In this document: in pieces, positions 36,840 through 45,754 of the stretch
Numbering within the stretch: the first letter of the stretch is position 1
Layout: each line of letters starts with the position of its first letter
Source of the DNA: Erythrobasidium yunnanense
Lineage: Eukaryota; Basidiomycota; Cystobasidiomycetes; Erythrobasidiales; Erythrobasidiaceae
DNA: 64,000 bases
Direction: 5' to 3'
Assembly: GCA_001600175.1 (NCBI GenBank)
Contig: BCJC01000002.1
Location: 998,318-1,062,317, forward strand
The notes under the pieces: generated by a model
Told to the model about the DNA's origin: nothing
Seen by the model: the letters and a program-made list of their open reading frames with translations, nothing else
Databases searched by the model: none
Position numbers and translations under genes: made by a program

Positions 36840-39800
36840 TTACTGCACAAAAGGTCAAATCGGTGACTGCGCCATCTTTATGGCGAGAGACTCACAAATT
36901 CCCAATCTTCAGGAACATCCATAGCCCAGACTACGAAAGAAGAGGATTAGCCGACAACCTCAGCACAACAGTCAAGGAGACTTACCGAATTTCTTGCGTA
37001 AAGTAGCTGAAAAGATCTTTTCGAGTGGTACACCGAATTTCTTGCTGAAAGCGATGGTGATTCTCGGGTCCTTTAGATGATAATCAGCCATAATACCTTG
37101 CGACTTCAAGCCAAGCATGCTCACCATATAGTTGATCTTGGAGGTAGTCAGAGAGACTTCTTTGCCTTCCTCCTTGTCGACGGCAGCGATCTTTTGCGCT
37201 TCGATACGATCGTCGATCTTGCCTAGAGCGGTGACGATCTTGGCCGTTGTTTGCGATGATTTAGGTTCGACGCTGTGAGAACAAGATATGATTAACTGTA
37301 CACCTATAGCGACGATGCTGCTGCGACTTACTGCTTCTTTTCACGCTCCTCCTTCAGCTCCTGATCGAGACCATCGACCTCTTCGAGCAGCTTCTCGAGC
37401 TCTTTCTCGGTCGACTCCTTCTCGCCTTCCGCCTTCTTCTTCTCGTTGTCCTTCTCCCACTTCTTTTTGATCTTTGCTTTCTCCTTCTCCATAATGTCCT
37501 TCTCGTGTGACTCGCACCAATCATCATCGAGGTCGCTCTCCATCTCCTTGTACTGCTTATATTTCTTTTTATTATCTGCATCGACAGCCCATAGTGTATA
37601 TCGAAGCTTCATTCTTTGGTACTTGATGGCTTTGACTTTATCAGCGAGCTTCTCCATGGCTGCCCCGTGGCCCTTGGCAGCGGCACGTTGATGATTACAT
37701 AGTTCGGCGACAAGTCGATTGGCTCGGTTGTAGTGCAGCATCTTGTCGGCTATCGTAGCGTCTTTGGGTGTAGATGCCAGTTGCTGCTGAAGCAGGATGG
37801 AAGCATTGTATGTACGGAAAACTTTAGCGGATAGACCTTTCATGTACGAAGAGAAGAACTTGTTGAGGATGGTAGGCTGGTAACGCGAGAGTCAGTCTGT
37901 TTCGAAGCAGACAAGGACAGAGTGAGGACTCACGCTGATTCGATCGAACAGGTCGGCTCCTTCCTCGCTTCCCTTCTTGAATAGCTTAAGATTCTTGAAT
38001 ACTTGCGTGGTGACCTCCTTATCAGGCTGATAAAATCTGATAGAGTCTTTACCCAAAAAGTCGAAAGTGACTAGATTCGGTTCCTTCAGGGTAACGTGTT
38101 CGTATCGAAGAGAACAGCAGCCGACGGTGTCTGCTTCATCTTCTCCTTTCTCATTTCCGACACGAAGTGCGAATCGATCGATGAAATAGACGGCGGTTGC
38201 TCGCTGGCGGTCTGCCATGACTTTCGACGTGAGATCCGCTTCATAGTCTTGGCGGATGGTAGTAATCATGTCCTGCTCATCTCGCATCAGTGTCATGACC
38301 TAGAAGGAGGAAGCTAGACAAGGGATGTAACGCACCTTGAGCTTTCGAGCCTTCTCGAACTTCTTCAGATCGCTCTGTCCCTTCCATGCTGAACCAGCAG
38401 CGAGGAAGACATACTTTGTACCACCATTGATATTCTCTTTCCACGTAGCCAGCCAAGTAACGTTCGGGTCATGCTGCACTTTGGCCCACTTGTGGCCGGC
38501 AGGAGGTTCGGGTACTTTGGCTTCTTTGCCAATGTTGATAGTGATGTCTTCCGCTTGGAGTCGGAGCTGAATGTCATAAGGACGGTTAGCATGCGATATA
38601 TCGAGTTGTATACGGTAACTCACCTTGAGCGTTCCCTTCTTTGGATGTTCTCCTCTCCCTCTGAACAGACCAGGCGGTTCCAATCTAAAGTTACCTACTT
38701 TCTCCACTCTTCCATCTACCAGACACGTAATGAAGCCTTTCTCAATAGCGTCTTTTTCTTTCTTCGCTTCTGCTTTTTCAGCTTTCGTCATAGCCTTCTT
38801 CTTCTCCCTCTCCATTTCGAAATGATCATACATAGGTCTGAAATCCAGCTTGTCGAAGTCATTTTTCCCGATGGTGATCTTGTTGCGAGGAGGATACTCA
38901 GCGAGCGTCTCGAGGAAACCCTTGAAGAAATTGGCTTGGAAGGTGCTGTCTTTCGCATGGTCCGTCTCTAACATTGCAGCGTAGAAACCAGCAACTTCTT
39001 CAGACTCGGGCGGTAGATCAACAGGCTTGCCTGGAAGGACAGATACGAATTGTCAGCAAAGAAGCTCTCAGACGCGCACGTAAGGTCGGAGCATACCATT
39101 GTAGAGTAATTTGACGTTCTTAGGGAGGGGAGTGTATTCAGGCGGGAAGAGGACGCCATTGTGTTCCAGGGTCTTCCACTTCGGACCTTCTTCTCCATCG
39201 GCATTCTGTTCAGCCCACCATTTGTACTCCTCACTATCCTCGTCTTCATCCTTGACTCCATCCTTGATGTCCTCGTTCTCATTCTTGACCTTCTGTTTGC
39301 CCTTCTTGCCTTTAGCCGATGTGCCTGCACCTTCATCTACGGAGTCTTCCTTCTTGACTTTCTTTCCTGCTCCTTTGCTCTTGGAAGCACCTGTCTTAGC
39401 CTTCTTCTTAGCAGGTTTAACATCCTCGGACTCGTAGGCTTCATCATCGTCCGAGTCCTCCTTCTTTGCACGCTTCTTTCCCTTAGTAGCAGCTTTCTTG
39501 GGCTTGGCTTTTGCAGCTAGAGGAACATCGTCATCCTCGTCGCTGGATGCTTCCTCCTTCTTGACAGCTTTGGCAGGCTTGGTCTTGCCATTGACCTTAG
39601 CTGCAAGGGGAGCATCGTCATCGGAGGTAGAAGAAGAGGAAGCGTTACCATCTTCGTCTTCATCTTTGCTGGATGTAGCTTTGCTTGATGAAGCTGTAGA
39701 CGATCTGCTCTTTCTCTTGTTGTTCGAAGAAGAAGCTTTCCCATTCTTTCCATTCGTAGTCTTAGCAGCTAGAGGTTTGTCATCGTCACTACTGCTTGAA

Positions 39801-40558
39801 TCATCCTTCTTATCGACATCCATCTTGGAATCCTCGTCATCCTCCTCTTTCTTGACGGGTTTTGCGTCTGCCATAGGATGGTCTGCATGTGCTCCGGTAG
39901 AAGAGACAGCATTGGTGACGCCGACAGGGAAGCCAGCTGCAGCTATCTCTTGTCGGAGATGAGCGTCTTCCAAGCCTAGCTTAGACGTGTCGGGCTGTTG
40001 ACGGGATCATAGAGGGAGAGGGAAGTGAAAGAAGAGTCAGTAAGGTTATGTCCATGGATATGTATATGCGCTTGTCTTTGTCTGCAGGCGCTCCTCTAGT
40101 CTCTTGCATCACCCGACAACGGGTAAAGTGCGTATTTTCATGACGCGAAATGACCACGATGATGAGAGTATGCAGTGATTTCCATCCCCAACGTCGTGAT
40201 GCATGGTACAGTATAACTGTACAGCGTCTGGACGCTGTTCTGGGAATGTCACAACAAAGGTCCAACGAGCTCGCGTGCCCGACGCGACTTTGACGAAGGT
40301 TGCGCGAAGCAGGATAGGAAAGGGAAGAGGATATAAGGTCGCAAGAAGGTATAGAAACATGGATGGAAACAAGCCTGGAAAGCGTCGACTTACGACTTCA
40401 TGATTTCCGGCTTCTTTGAGGATAGCACCACCATTAGCTACAGCTTCAGGATTGCTGTTATTGCTCGTTGTTCGCTGCATCAGTGGCGCATCATCATCGT
40501 CGTCGTCTTCACTCTCGCTGATGACTCGTTTCTTGTATGTTCCCTTGGTGCTGCTCAT
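36840..40558 (-). CDS. TOP1: DNA topoisomerase I (type IB)
   Basis: Relaxes supercoils by nicking one strand through a 3'-phosphotyrosine. Exons: 40394-40558, 39097-39994, 38624-39030, 38336-38566, 37934-38299, 37332-37876, 37125-37272, 36986-37070, 36896-36930 and 36840-36842, 960 residues. The N-terminal about 270 residues are Lys/Asp/Ser-rich and disordered. The core starts at EYKWWAEQN, with [30 protein letters not shown] and [29 protein letters not shown] is the conserved catalytic block; a charged linker rich in [11 protein letters not shown] follows. The active-site tyrosine is Y919 in [16 protein letters not shown], split by a 54-bp stop-free intron. The end is [13 protein letters not shown] place the stop codon in its own last exon because this reproduces the exact family ending; reading through gives VSLSP and a stop at 36878. 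Intron 1 is long (399 bp). Confidence 0.93.
39995..40393 (-). other. Unusually long TOP1 intron 1 with two adjacent hairpins
   Basis: The intron is 399 bp, about seven times the window's usual length. It contains GTACAGT-ATA-ACTGTAC at 40206-40222 and, overlapping by two bases, ACAGCGTC-TG-GACGCTGT at 40221-40238, both perfect inverted repeats. I see no open frame worth annotating in it. Confidence 0.75.
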
Positions 40559-41271: not shown

Positions 41272-43950
41272 CTATACCGCCTGCTTGGCAGCTGCTATAA
41301 ACCGTCTAATCTTGTCTAGGTCCTTCTCACCATTCGTCTCTACCCCACCACTGACGTCCAATCCCCACGGTCTGACCATCCTGACTGCATTCCCAACATT
41401 CTCAACCTCCAGTCCTCCCGCCAGGAGGATAGGCAATTCTTTCTCTTTCACGAGTTTCTGCGCAATACTCCAATCAAAGCTCTTGCCTGCTCCTCCACTC
41501 AAGCCTGATTTCCCGACTTTTGTATCGAGTAGAGGAATGGAATGATAGCCTGGTCGAGAGGCTTCCTGTAAAGCTAGAAGCGTAGATGAGGAATCGTGTC
41601 CTTCAGCAGATACAGCCTCGTCCACGTGGAAAGCCTTGAATGTAGGAACGCCCAAAAGGCGACACCACTCAGCAGGCTCGGAGCCGTGAAGTTGGACGAT
41701 GTCGAGATGCAATGCATCAACTGTTTGGAGCACAGTCTCGAGAGGTGCATTCTGGAAGACTCCAACGAAGAGCGGCTTCCGGCGTGTCTTTGACAGTTTC
41801 TCAGCTTGTAGCGAGAAGTAATCGTTCGATGGATACAGGCTGCTCTGCCCGTCGTCTTTGCTGGCTGAGGAAGTAGAAGAGGTATGCCGCGCCCTGACGC
41901 TGTCGATGACTTTCTTCGCTTGGTCAAGCTGGATATACCTCTTCGACTTTGGGACGAATATTAATCCGATGAAGTCTGCTCCGGCTTCAGCGGCAGTCAG
42001 AGCCGCTTCGACAGTCTTGACACCACAGATTTTGACAAGTGGCTTGTATGCGTCTATTGACGATGAGGAAGAAGTGCCGTTAAGAGGAGTATTGCCGGAA
42101 TCGACATATGTCTCGGGCGTAGCTAGACCATCAGGAGGTCCAGTAAGCTGAGCTTGCGAAAGTCTTCTTGGTCTAGAGCTTGTCGTTGCCGTAGATGGAC
42201 TGGAGACGCCCAATAGCGTCCTGACAAACGCGCCTCTATCTTCGGCTTTCATAAGTGCTTCTCCCACTAGGACGGCTCCTACTCCTTCGTTGACGTATCT
42301 CACTACATCTTCCCTTCCCGTGATCCCACTAAGTGCACACAGTATGACTTTCCTTTCATCTCTCACTCCTCCTCCATTTGCCTTATTCATCTTATCCGAG
42401 TAATCATTGATGACTTCAGCGATCCTGCTCGTTGTGCCCATGTCCACATTGAAATCATGCAGGTTCCTATTGTTGACTCCGATAACTTTCGCACCGATAG
42501 CCAATGCTCTCTTCAACTCTTCTGGGTTGTTCACTTCCACCAACGGCTCCATTCCCCTCTTATTCCTCGCGTATTCATATAGGTGCTTGAGCGTGGTATC
42601 ATCTAGCATAGCTACGATCAGCAGTACCGTATCTGCGCCATACAATCTCGCTTCGTCGATCTGGTACGTGTCGAATACGAAGTCTTTCCTCAAGATAGCG
42701 GGCCGGTTCGCGAGTGTAGAAACGACGTTTCGAACAGCTAGCATGTCGTTGAGCGTCCCTTTGAACCATGTGGGCTCAGTCAAGACGGAGATGACACTAG
42801 CGCCCGCTTGGGCATACGAATAGGCGATTGTTGCGGCTGTCAAGGGTGAGGAAGGTGGTAGAATGTCGCCTTTGGAAGGCGAGGCACGCTTCACTTCGGC
42901 CATTAAGGCTACGCTCGCTTGAGTTAAGGCGGAAGAAGAGGAAGTGATGGATGATGCGGAGGATAAGATGCGCTCGTAGAAATTGATCTGGGGAGGTGCA
43001 ATGTGCAAGTCGATGAGCGCTGTAAGGTCGGAGGGATAGGAGCCTGGAGTAGCTTTTGCTTTTGTAACGTCTTCCTGCCGCTGTGCGTAGATCCGCGTGA
43101 GGATAGTAGGTGCTGAGCCTGCATTCTCCTTAGCTTGCTTGGGTGCCCCTTCTGTGGAGTGACCATTTGATAGAGATGACGGCAAGCCAAAACCTGGGTT
43201 CTCCTCCCATTTCCCTCCCTTGAGCTGCAGGAAGTTCGCAAGCATAGACTGTCCTTCTTCTGAGAGTATGGACTCGGGATGGTACTGGACGGCTTCCATT
43301 GTGAGTTCTTTGTGTCTGATACCCATGACTATCCCTTCATTGCTTTTAGCAGTCTGTCCTACTCTCGGTGTTCTGCAAGTGACTTCCAGCTCTTTCGGCA
43401 GTGTCACGATATCTCCCGCCAGTGAGTGGTATCTCGTCCCATCAATCTCATTCCTGATGCCTTTGAATATTCCCTTTCCATCATGAGTAAGAACACTCGT
43501 CTTGCCATGTACTATTTCTCCTACTCTGTCGACTGTCCCTCCGTACGCTGCAAACATGCACTGCAAGCCCATGCACACGCCCAGTATGGGAATCTTGCCT
43601 GAGAAATGCTTGATGGACGGTATACTGATGCCACTATCTTTTAACGGATGTCCTGGGCCAGGTGAGATTACGAGGTGCGAAATGTCGGGATGGGTACTGA
43701 GCAGCTCGTCGAGAGTAAGGTCGCCAGCCCGTACGACCGTCACTTTCGCATCCTTCTGCACAAGACATAGATATTGATAGAGATTCCAGGAGCTGCGAGC
43801 GTATTCAGTATGCCTTTTTCTCTTTTGACGAGTCAGTCCAGTAAGATGGCCTTACAAGCTGCGAACAGGGCAGTCAGCGCGATGCCACGTTTACTGGTGA
43901 TTTAGTACCCACGAATCATAGTTATCGATGAGCAGGATATGCTGGGCCAT
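41272..43950 (-). CDS. TRP1: Trifunctional tryptophan biosynthesis protein (GATase - IGPS - PRAI)
   Basis: Combines glutamine amidotransferase of anthranilate synthase, indole-3-glycerol-phosphate synthase and phosphoribosylanthranilate isomerase, the usual fusion in filamentous and basidiomycete fungi. Exons: 43913-43950, a 3-nt exon 43856-43858 and 41272-43792; 853 residues. The start is MAQHILLIDNYDS. The amidotransferase nucleophile lies in GVCMGLQCMFA (about residue 87) and the His/Glu pair in QYHPESILSEEG. The IGPS domain (about 265-540) has LMAEVKRASPSKGDI, RKDFVFDTYQI and KVIGVNNRNLHDF. The isomerase (about 590-853) starts VKICGVKTVEAAL, with LLAGGLEVENV and GLDVSGGVE near the end. 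The tiny exon supplies the Phe of the universal DSF element (see findings); without it the protein would read DSSWN. Confidence for the gene is high, for the tiny exon moderate. Confidence 0.95.
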
Positions 43951-44238: not shown

Positions 44239-45754
44239 ATGTCGTCCAAAAGCAAGACTCAAGTCGGATACACTCGCCTGGGCAGCAGCGGGTTGCAGAT
44301 ATCAAGGCTGATTCTGGGTGGGAGCGTCATCATCCACTATCTATATAGTATACTGACTTGGTTCGCAGGCATGATGAGCTACGGCACAAAAGAGATGAGC
44401 CTGGCCCTGGCTTCTGGCGATTGACCTTCCTATCGCATGACTAACCATCTTTCGTTCATTGTTTCTACTGGGCAGAATGGACTGTGGGCCAGGAAGAATG
44501 CTCAGAACACGTCAAGTTTGCGTGGGAACACGGCATAAATACATTCGACACGGCAGACATGTACTCGCAAGGAGTATCAGAAGTCATGCTTGGAAAAGCT
44601 CTAAAGCAGCTCAATGTGCCAAGAGACAACTTTGTCATCCTCACTAAGGTGCCTTTCCACCCTTCCTGTCTCTACCGCGCCGAGACACTGAGAAGACTTA
44701 TGCGCAGTGCTTCCAACCCGTCAAAGCGGGACCACCGGGAGGAGGACGACCTCCCATGACGGACCAGGAGCTCGATGAACAAGGATTCGTAAATCAGCGT
44801 GGTCTCTCGAGGAAACACATCTTTGATGCCGTGCAAGCAAGCTTGAGAAGACTGGACACAGACTACATCGACGTATTGCAGTGCCATCGTGGGTGTACTT
44901 CCATGCGCACTCTTATGATGCTGGATGTACTGATGTGGGGATATTGGCAGGCTTCGATTACAACACGCCTATCGCGGAGACCATGCAAGCTCTGCATGAT
45001 GTAGTCCAGAAAGGCTGGGTCCGCTACATCGGAATGTCATCCTGCTACGCCCATCAGTTCTGGAAGATGCAGAGTGCGTCACATCCATCTCTTTCTTCTA
45101 CCTGCCTTCGCCGCAGTTGGCTGATTCTTGGCAAATGATCGCCAGCCTACGCGATCCAGAACCGCTTGACGCCTTTCATCAGCATGCAAAACTTCCACAA
45201 TGCAGCTTATAGAGAAGAAGAGCGAGAAATGGTACCCACGCTAAAAGAGTTCGGCGTCGGTATGATTCCCTGGTCTCCCATCGCACGCGGCTGTAAGCTA
45301 TCTTTCTCCATTTCCTCGTTCTCTCTGCGCCGACTAAAGAATCTCTCCTATGCATATAGTTCTCGCTCGACCTCTAGGCGAACAAGGCTCCACCACACGT
45401 GGCGGAGGTGCAGATGCCGTATTCAAGCGCTTCAATTCCACCGAACTTGAATCTACGAGAGAAATCAATAGACGGATCGAGAAGATTGCCAAAGAGACGG
45501 GGCATAGTATGGCGCAGATCGCTTATGCATGGAGCATGGCACAGCCGTTTATCGATGCGCCTGTCATTGGTGGGTCGCGACTTGACTTTGAGTGGGAGAG
45601 GGGAAGGCTGATCCTGTTGCATGGTATGGTAGGTTCTACTAAGCTGCACCACTTGGAAGAAGCGATTGAAGCTACGCAGATCAAGCTTACAGACGAACAG
45701 ATCGAATCTATCAAGGAAGCTTATGCACCTCAAGCTATCAGAGGACACAACTAG
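44239..45754 (+). CDS. Aldo/keto reductase
   Basis: NADPH-dependent oxidoreductase of the AKR superfamily, close to fungal YajO/aryl-alcohol-dehydrogenase-like members. Exons: 44239-44317, 44369-about 44398, 44476-44648, 44708-44888, 44951-45073, 45146-45292, 45360-45569 and 45633-45754, about 354 residues. It begins [17 protein letters not shown], then [17 protein letters not shown] with the catalytic Asp and Tyr, VILTK with the catalytic Lys, YIDVLQCHR with the catalytic His, and [13 protein letters not shown]. The C-terminal cofactor block is [14 protein letters not shown]. After exon 2 no GT exists before the frame closes, so this junction must be non-canonical (a GC donor at 44399 fits the phase) or broken. 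The last intron (45570-45632, 63 bp) is stop-free in frame. Family certain, function of this copy less so. Confidence 0.85.

Follow-up and report, generated by a model that had tools for sequence, protein, structure and literature searches.

Results

Structure of the split 5′ end of TRP1

The three nucleotides CTT at positions 43858–43856 very probably constitute a genuine, constitutively included exon of a basidiomycete TRP1/trpC gene, spliced by intron definition, as judged from the DNA sequence and its homologues. Positions refer to the window, the whole 64,000-nucleotide stretch of Erythrobasidium yunnanense DNA that was analysed, which lies on contig C2 of a 20.9 Mb genome in 10 contigs. 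The trifunctional TRP1/trpC protein (GATase-IGPS-PRAI) is encoded at 43950–41272 on the minus strand, and the CTT is an internal coding segment between two introns, each with its own donor, branch site and acceptor (Table 1). The original prediction had the first exon ending at 43913, followed by a 54-bp intron, CTT and a 63-bp intron, both introns with normal ends; this anatomy proved exact when the coordinates were rechecked, and its reading of TC + CTT + C as Ser-Phe, with DSSWN on skipping and both forms in frame, agrees with the translation.

Table 1 Features of the 5′ end of TRP1 (window positions).
Feature	Position	Strand	Description	Basis
TRP1 exon 1	43913..43950	(-)	38 nt, ATG...GATTC; codes MAQHILLIDNYD plus bases 1 and 2 of the Ser12 codon	sequence, ab initio parse
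Intron 1	43859..43912	(-)	54 nt, GT-AG, GTGGGT...GCTGAC...TTCGCAG; phase 2, in the Ser codon	
Predicted micro-exon CTT	43856..43858	(-)	last base of the Ser12 codon, first two of the Phe13 codon	
Intron 2	43793..43855	(-)	63 nt, GT-AG, GTAAGG...CTCGCAG; phase 2, in the Phe codon	
TRP1 exon 3	41272..43792	(-)	2521 nt; remaining GATase, then IGPS, PRAI, stop	open frame, Pfam

With CTT included, the gene encodes a protein of 853 aa with the N-terminus MAQHILLIDNYDSFSWN, and with CTT omitted the motif becomes DSSWN. The spliced protein passed the Pfam cut-offs for GATase (residues 6–202), IGPS (245–540) and PRAI (669–847), and its GATase score was 156.4 with CTT versus 146.5 without. Searched at the protein level with the GATase portion of TRP1, the genome gave one match. 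Upstream, an open frame on the plus strand (44239–44424), which we take to resemble the start of an aldo-keto reductase gene, points in the opposite direction to TRP1, and the starts of the two lie about 290 bp apart.

Structures that restore the GATase motif

The GATase motif reads DN(Y/F)DSF(S/T)WN, and CTT completes its Ser12 and starts its Phe13. For ALTERNATIVES, we enumerated the open in-frame structures with one or two introns that lead from the ATG into exon 3, allowing GT or GC donors, AG acceptors and introns of at least 38 nt, and obtained 154. The CTT structure ranked first both by profile bits against an 84-homologue profile (317.1, with skipping of CTT second at 306.8) and by splice score (28.0, with the next structure at 22.3 and skipping at 8.3), and it was the only one of the 154 that contained DSF. 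When the splice rules were dropped and boundaries left free, none of 22,785 single deletions restored the conserved motif, and retaining either intron 1 or intron 2 led to an early stop. None of the alternatives yields DSF, and all were rejected: one intron of 120 nt, different acceptors, donors of the GC type, single deletions and intron retention. Because the enumeration and the single deletions fail otherwise, the Phe needs something kept between two removed pieces between these flanks; together with the homologues described below, these counts (1/154 structures, 0/22,785 deletions) indicate that a micro-exon is needed to restore the conserved protein sequence. The proposal that CTT supplies the Phe of DSF is supported in that this was the sole motif-restoring structure found and was also parsed ab initio; another acceptor supplying the Phe, which had been named as evidence against it, did not occur among the 154 structures.

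Conservation of the phenylalanine

Among the best 120 of 5119 homologues, 85 had an intact DN-x-DSF[ST][WYH]N, 10 were interrupted there and 25 were without the stretch; a Phe-less form of the motif was found in none of these 120. A second homologue search used the Phe-less N-terminus as query, thereby favouring Phe-less proteins, and the Phe was present in all 58 of its matches. Both searches combined gave 174 homologues, with motif and Phe in 139, no intact stretch in 35 and the Phe-less motif in none. Phe13 was also the same in all 28 full-length homologues selected for an alignment, and DSF was present in all five alignments shown among 32 matching PDB sequences. In a predicted model of homologue P0005, rather than of the protein encoded in the window, residue 13 falls between a strand (2–8) and a helix (14–23); the model had a pLDDT of 91 for residues 1–10 and 83 for residues 11–20, and a pTM of 0.48.

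The best named TRP1 homologues, presumably of Pucciniomycotina yeasts, had about 55–58% identity. Twelve closer TRP1 homologues had 63–70%, and the partial protein P0014 had 91% over 64% of the query; the twelve nearest homologues other than P0005 start downstream of the motif and are uninformative there. PF00117 had seven matches in the genome, one of which is TRP1. The other six, which we take to resemble two carbamoyl-phosphate synthase genes, a CTP synthase, a GMP synthase (two matches) and the histidine-pathway GATase, lack DSF[ST]xN on both strands, so that no paralogue is comparable at the motif.

Putative introns near the motif in relatives

The ten homologues broken at the motif, among the best 120 of 5119, were inspected from their protein letters. 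P0047, P0053 and P0045 look as though an intron ended AG|C ahead of TTC, which would place it in the Ser codon of intron 1; an intron in the preceding Asp codon suits P0045 equally well. An intron in the Trp codon would account for P0056, P0061 and P0065, and one before YQYL for P0051, P0057 and P0064. These readings suggest that intron 1 may be older than intron 2. A search for related DNA with a matching split, made in viral and prokaryote collections where fungal sequences are not expected, yielded none.

In the public protein P0047 (Phenoliferia sp. Uapishka_3) the motif contains an unusual insert, DSFSIAALSFTWN, suggestive of a wrongly predicted intron boundary in the Ser codon shared with intron 1. 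On the same protein-level reading, the stretch coding for DSFTWNLYQ is seemingly split at several different sites across Pucciniomycotina TRP1 homologues (P0045, P0047, P0051, P0053, P0056, P0057, P0061, P0064 and P0065), resembling a preferred site for the gain or shift of introns.

Ab initio gene prediction and splice signals

A simple purpose-written gene finder was run on 264 kb, comprising the window and the preceding 200 kb, and returned 50 genes with 150 introns. Its final splice profiles were trained on 137 introns with TRP1 excluded; the intron penalty was chosen by hand and not tuned on TRP1, and the training of the coding model included TRP1. TRP1 was parsed into exons of 38, 3 and 2521 nt ab initio, without protein homology. 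The training introns had a median length of 58 nt (1st–99th percentiles 48–102). Only three of 109 internal exons were shorter than 40 nt: the CTT of TRP1, one of 34 nt and one further 3-nt exon. This second predicted 3-nt exon (C2:948883-952692) was rejected as an artefact that creates an in-frame stop.

As a check of the gene finder, six predicted junctions of a topoisomerase I gene (window 36878–39874) were aligned with 30 homologues; the best protein match of this gene was a partial protein at 71%, and the named matches were at about 55–60%. Four of the six junctions were gap-free on both sides; at the fifth the query had no gaps and the homologues had 0.53 on average, and at the sixth there was one gap in the query.

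The splice scores of the two TRP1 introns are ordinary, and neither is strong. Intron 1 had a splice total of 15.14, at the 61st percentile of the 150 predicted introns, with a weak donor (17th percentile), and intron 2 a total of 12.96, at the 23rd percentile, also with a weak donor (9th percentile). A CTGAC-type branch site had been proposed for both introns. This holds for intron 1, which has a strong GCTGAC site with 15 nt from the branch A to the intron end; in intron 2 the ACTGAC is 40 nt away from the intron end, unusually far at about the 96th percentile of the 137 training introns, and a nearer but weaker candidate, ACTGAA, lies 12 nt before it.

A further candidate exon of 9 nt, ATGGTTAAG, was observed outside the window at C2:863051-863059 on the minus strand (about 4734–4742 in L015), flanked by introns of 55 and 61 nt. 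The flanking splice scores are good (16.1 and 13.0), and the gene finder called no gene there; the candidate might encode MVK as a very short first coding exon.

Chance expectation

The stretch between the outer splice sites was subjected to 20,000 dinucleotide shuffles as a null model. Some AG-N3-GT at suitable spacing arose in 1170 shuffles and one giving Phe in 72; none of the 20,000 contained a 3-nt pair with both introns scoring at least 12.9, a threshold placed just below the weaker observed intron (12.96). At this threshold the TRP1 pair was the only tandem intron pair separated by 3 nt on both strands of the 264 kb, and at a threshold of 10.85 there were three such pairs versus four in the reversed-sequence control. 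Tandem intron-like pairs 1–30 nt apart numbered 13 versus 6 in the reversed control at 12.9, and 73 versus 60 at 10.85. With these control counts, the exon is not proved by splice signals alone; what decides is the protein motif at precisely the position of CTT, which carries most of the weight.

Discussion

Mechanism and rival explanations

Under intron definition, each flanking intron would be recognised as a complete short unit, and the length of the CTT exon would therefore hardly matter. Fission yeast pairs splice sites across the intron, and the short, uniform introns found here suggest recognition across the intron, which is tolerant of a tiny exon. The two introns would probably be removed sequentially, one after the other, since a 3′ and a 5′ splice site 3 nt apart could hardly be bound simultaneously. 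We infer that CTT is included in the mRNA in constitutive fashion. In the enzyme it would complete Ser12 and start Phe13 in the turn that links the first GATase strand to the first helix, where the Phe is presumably needed for function.

Removal of a single 120-nt intron (43912–43793), with CTT an accidental AG-NNN-GT and an enzyme that works as DSSWN, would give an in-frame product that ranks second of the 154 structures on profile bits (306.8). We nevertheless regard it as very unlikely, because such an intron has a splice score of 8.3 against 28.0 for the pair, only one of the 137 training introns exceeds 120 nt, the Phe-less motif occurs in none of the 174 homologues, and an equally good intron pair arose in none of the 20,000 shuffles. 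CTT could also be spliced alternatively, with a main Phe form accompanied by a regulated DSSWN form in which the glutaminase domain is altered and IGPS/PRAI are unchanged. The frame is kept in both forms and both donors of the pair lie below the median, but the poor score of the skipping intron and the lack of a Phe-less form among the 174 homologues make it highly improbable, and the aside in the original prediction that inclusion of CTT could vary is left unsupported by the same figures. Regulated inclusion, to which we give very little credence, would provide the full enzyme together with a form impaired in glutamine use with IGPS/PRAI intact; if true, it would be a single-residue splice switch tuning nitrogen flow into tryptophan.

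A nested, stwintron-like arrangement, in which one intron lies inside a splice element of another and leaves no exon of its own between them, would accord with two adjacent short introns in a fungus and with the removal of stwintrons by consecutive reactions that is described in the accessible part of the literature on them. It is extremely unlikely here: each intron is complete by its own score, neither interrupts the donor, branch site or acceptor of the other, and a nested pair leaves one junction, where none of the 22,785 single deletions restored the motif. A separate, constitutively included CTT exon is accordingly the reading that we retain.

Comparison with known micro-exons

Neither a micro-exon in TRP1/trpC nor a 3-nt exon in a fungal nuclear gene was found in the literature searched, which is weak evidence of absence as most subscription journals lay outside it. 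The statement in the original prediction that such small exons are rarely reported is fair, but 1-nt exons have been published in Arabidopsis and Fusarium. As described in the available portion of the report, Fusarium CYP621A has a 1-nt exon with RNA reads in support that is present in many orthologues (PMC12940212); like the CTT of TRP1, it is fungal, belongs to the smallest exon size class, lies inside a conserved motif and was found since the motif needs it. It differs in being an exon of 1 nt in an ascomycete P450, whose skipping breaks the frame, and in having orthologues and RNA reads behind it.

According to the accessible text of PMC9142197, bglA exons of basidiomycetous yeasts, derived from cDNA, go down to 6 bp in Rhodotorula minuta and 5 bp in Sirobasidium magnum. 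These organisms are likewise basidiomycete yeasts, and the R. minuta introns are about 60 nt long; the differences are that bglA is another gene, that a single gene contains many micro-exons (in R. minuta, 10 shorter than 30 bp) and that none as short as 3 nt appears in that text. Gene models of Phanerochaete P450s include one 6-bp exon, and a fungal mitochondrial gene has a single-nucleotide exon between two group II introns, both from sources available in part. A supposed 3-bp exon of Ganoderma gpd was discarded, being, in the portion of the source at hand, merely a 3-bp part of exon 2 in a construct; the first gpd exon is 6 bp.

Beyond fungi, a single-nucleotide exon has been described in Arabidopsis APC11 (PMC4674806), and conserved plant micro-exons include 1-nt exons confirmed by RT-PCR (PMC8831610). 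In the excerpts available, these plant micro-exons are alike in being coding, mostly included in transcripts and often absent from annotation, and differ in their plant origin, in verification by RNA-seq or RT-PCR and in the conservation of some across wide taxa. The micro-exon of Drosophila homothorax shares the length of 3 bp, but it undergoes alternative splicing within a larger exon of 48 bp, belongs to a transcription factor and was tested experimentally, as far as the available part of that paper describes it (PMC7392893). Given the published exons of 1–6 nt, the CTT of TRP1 belongs to an already known class.

Implications

A predictor that disallows such exons would produce DSSWN or a shifted protein start in TRP1, and short-read aligners are prone to losing a 3-nt exon. 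If transcripts confirm it, the CTT exon would be shorter than the 5–6 bp basidiomycete exons of the papers compared, would lie in a housekeeping gene, and would offer a clean natural test of an intron-recognising spliceosome with splice sites three bases apart.
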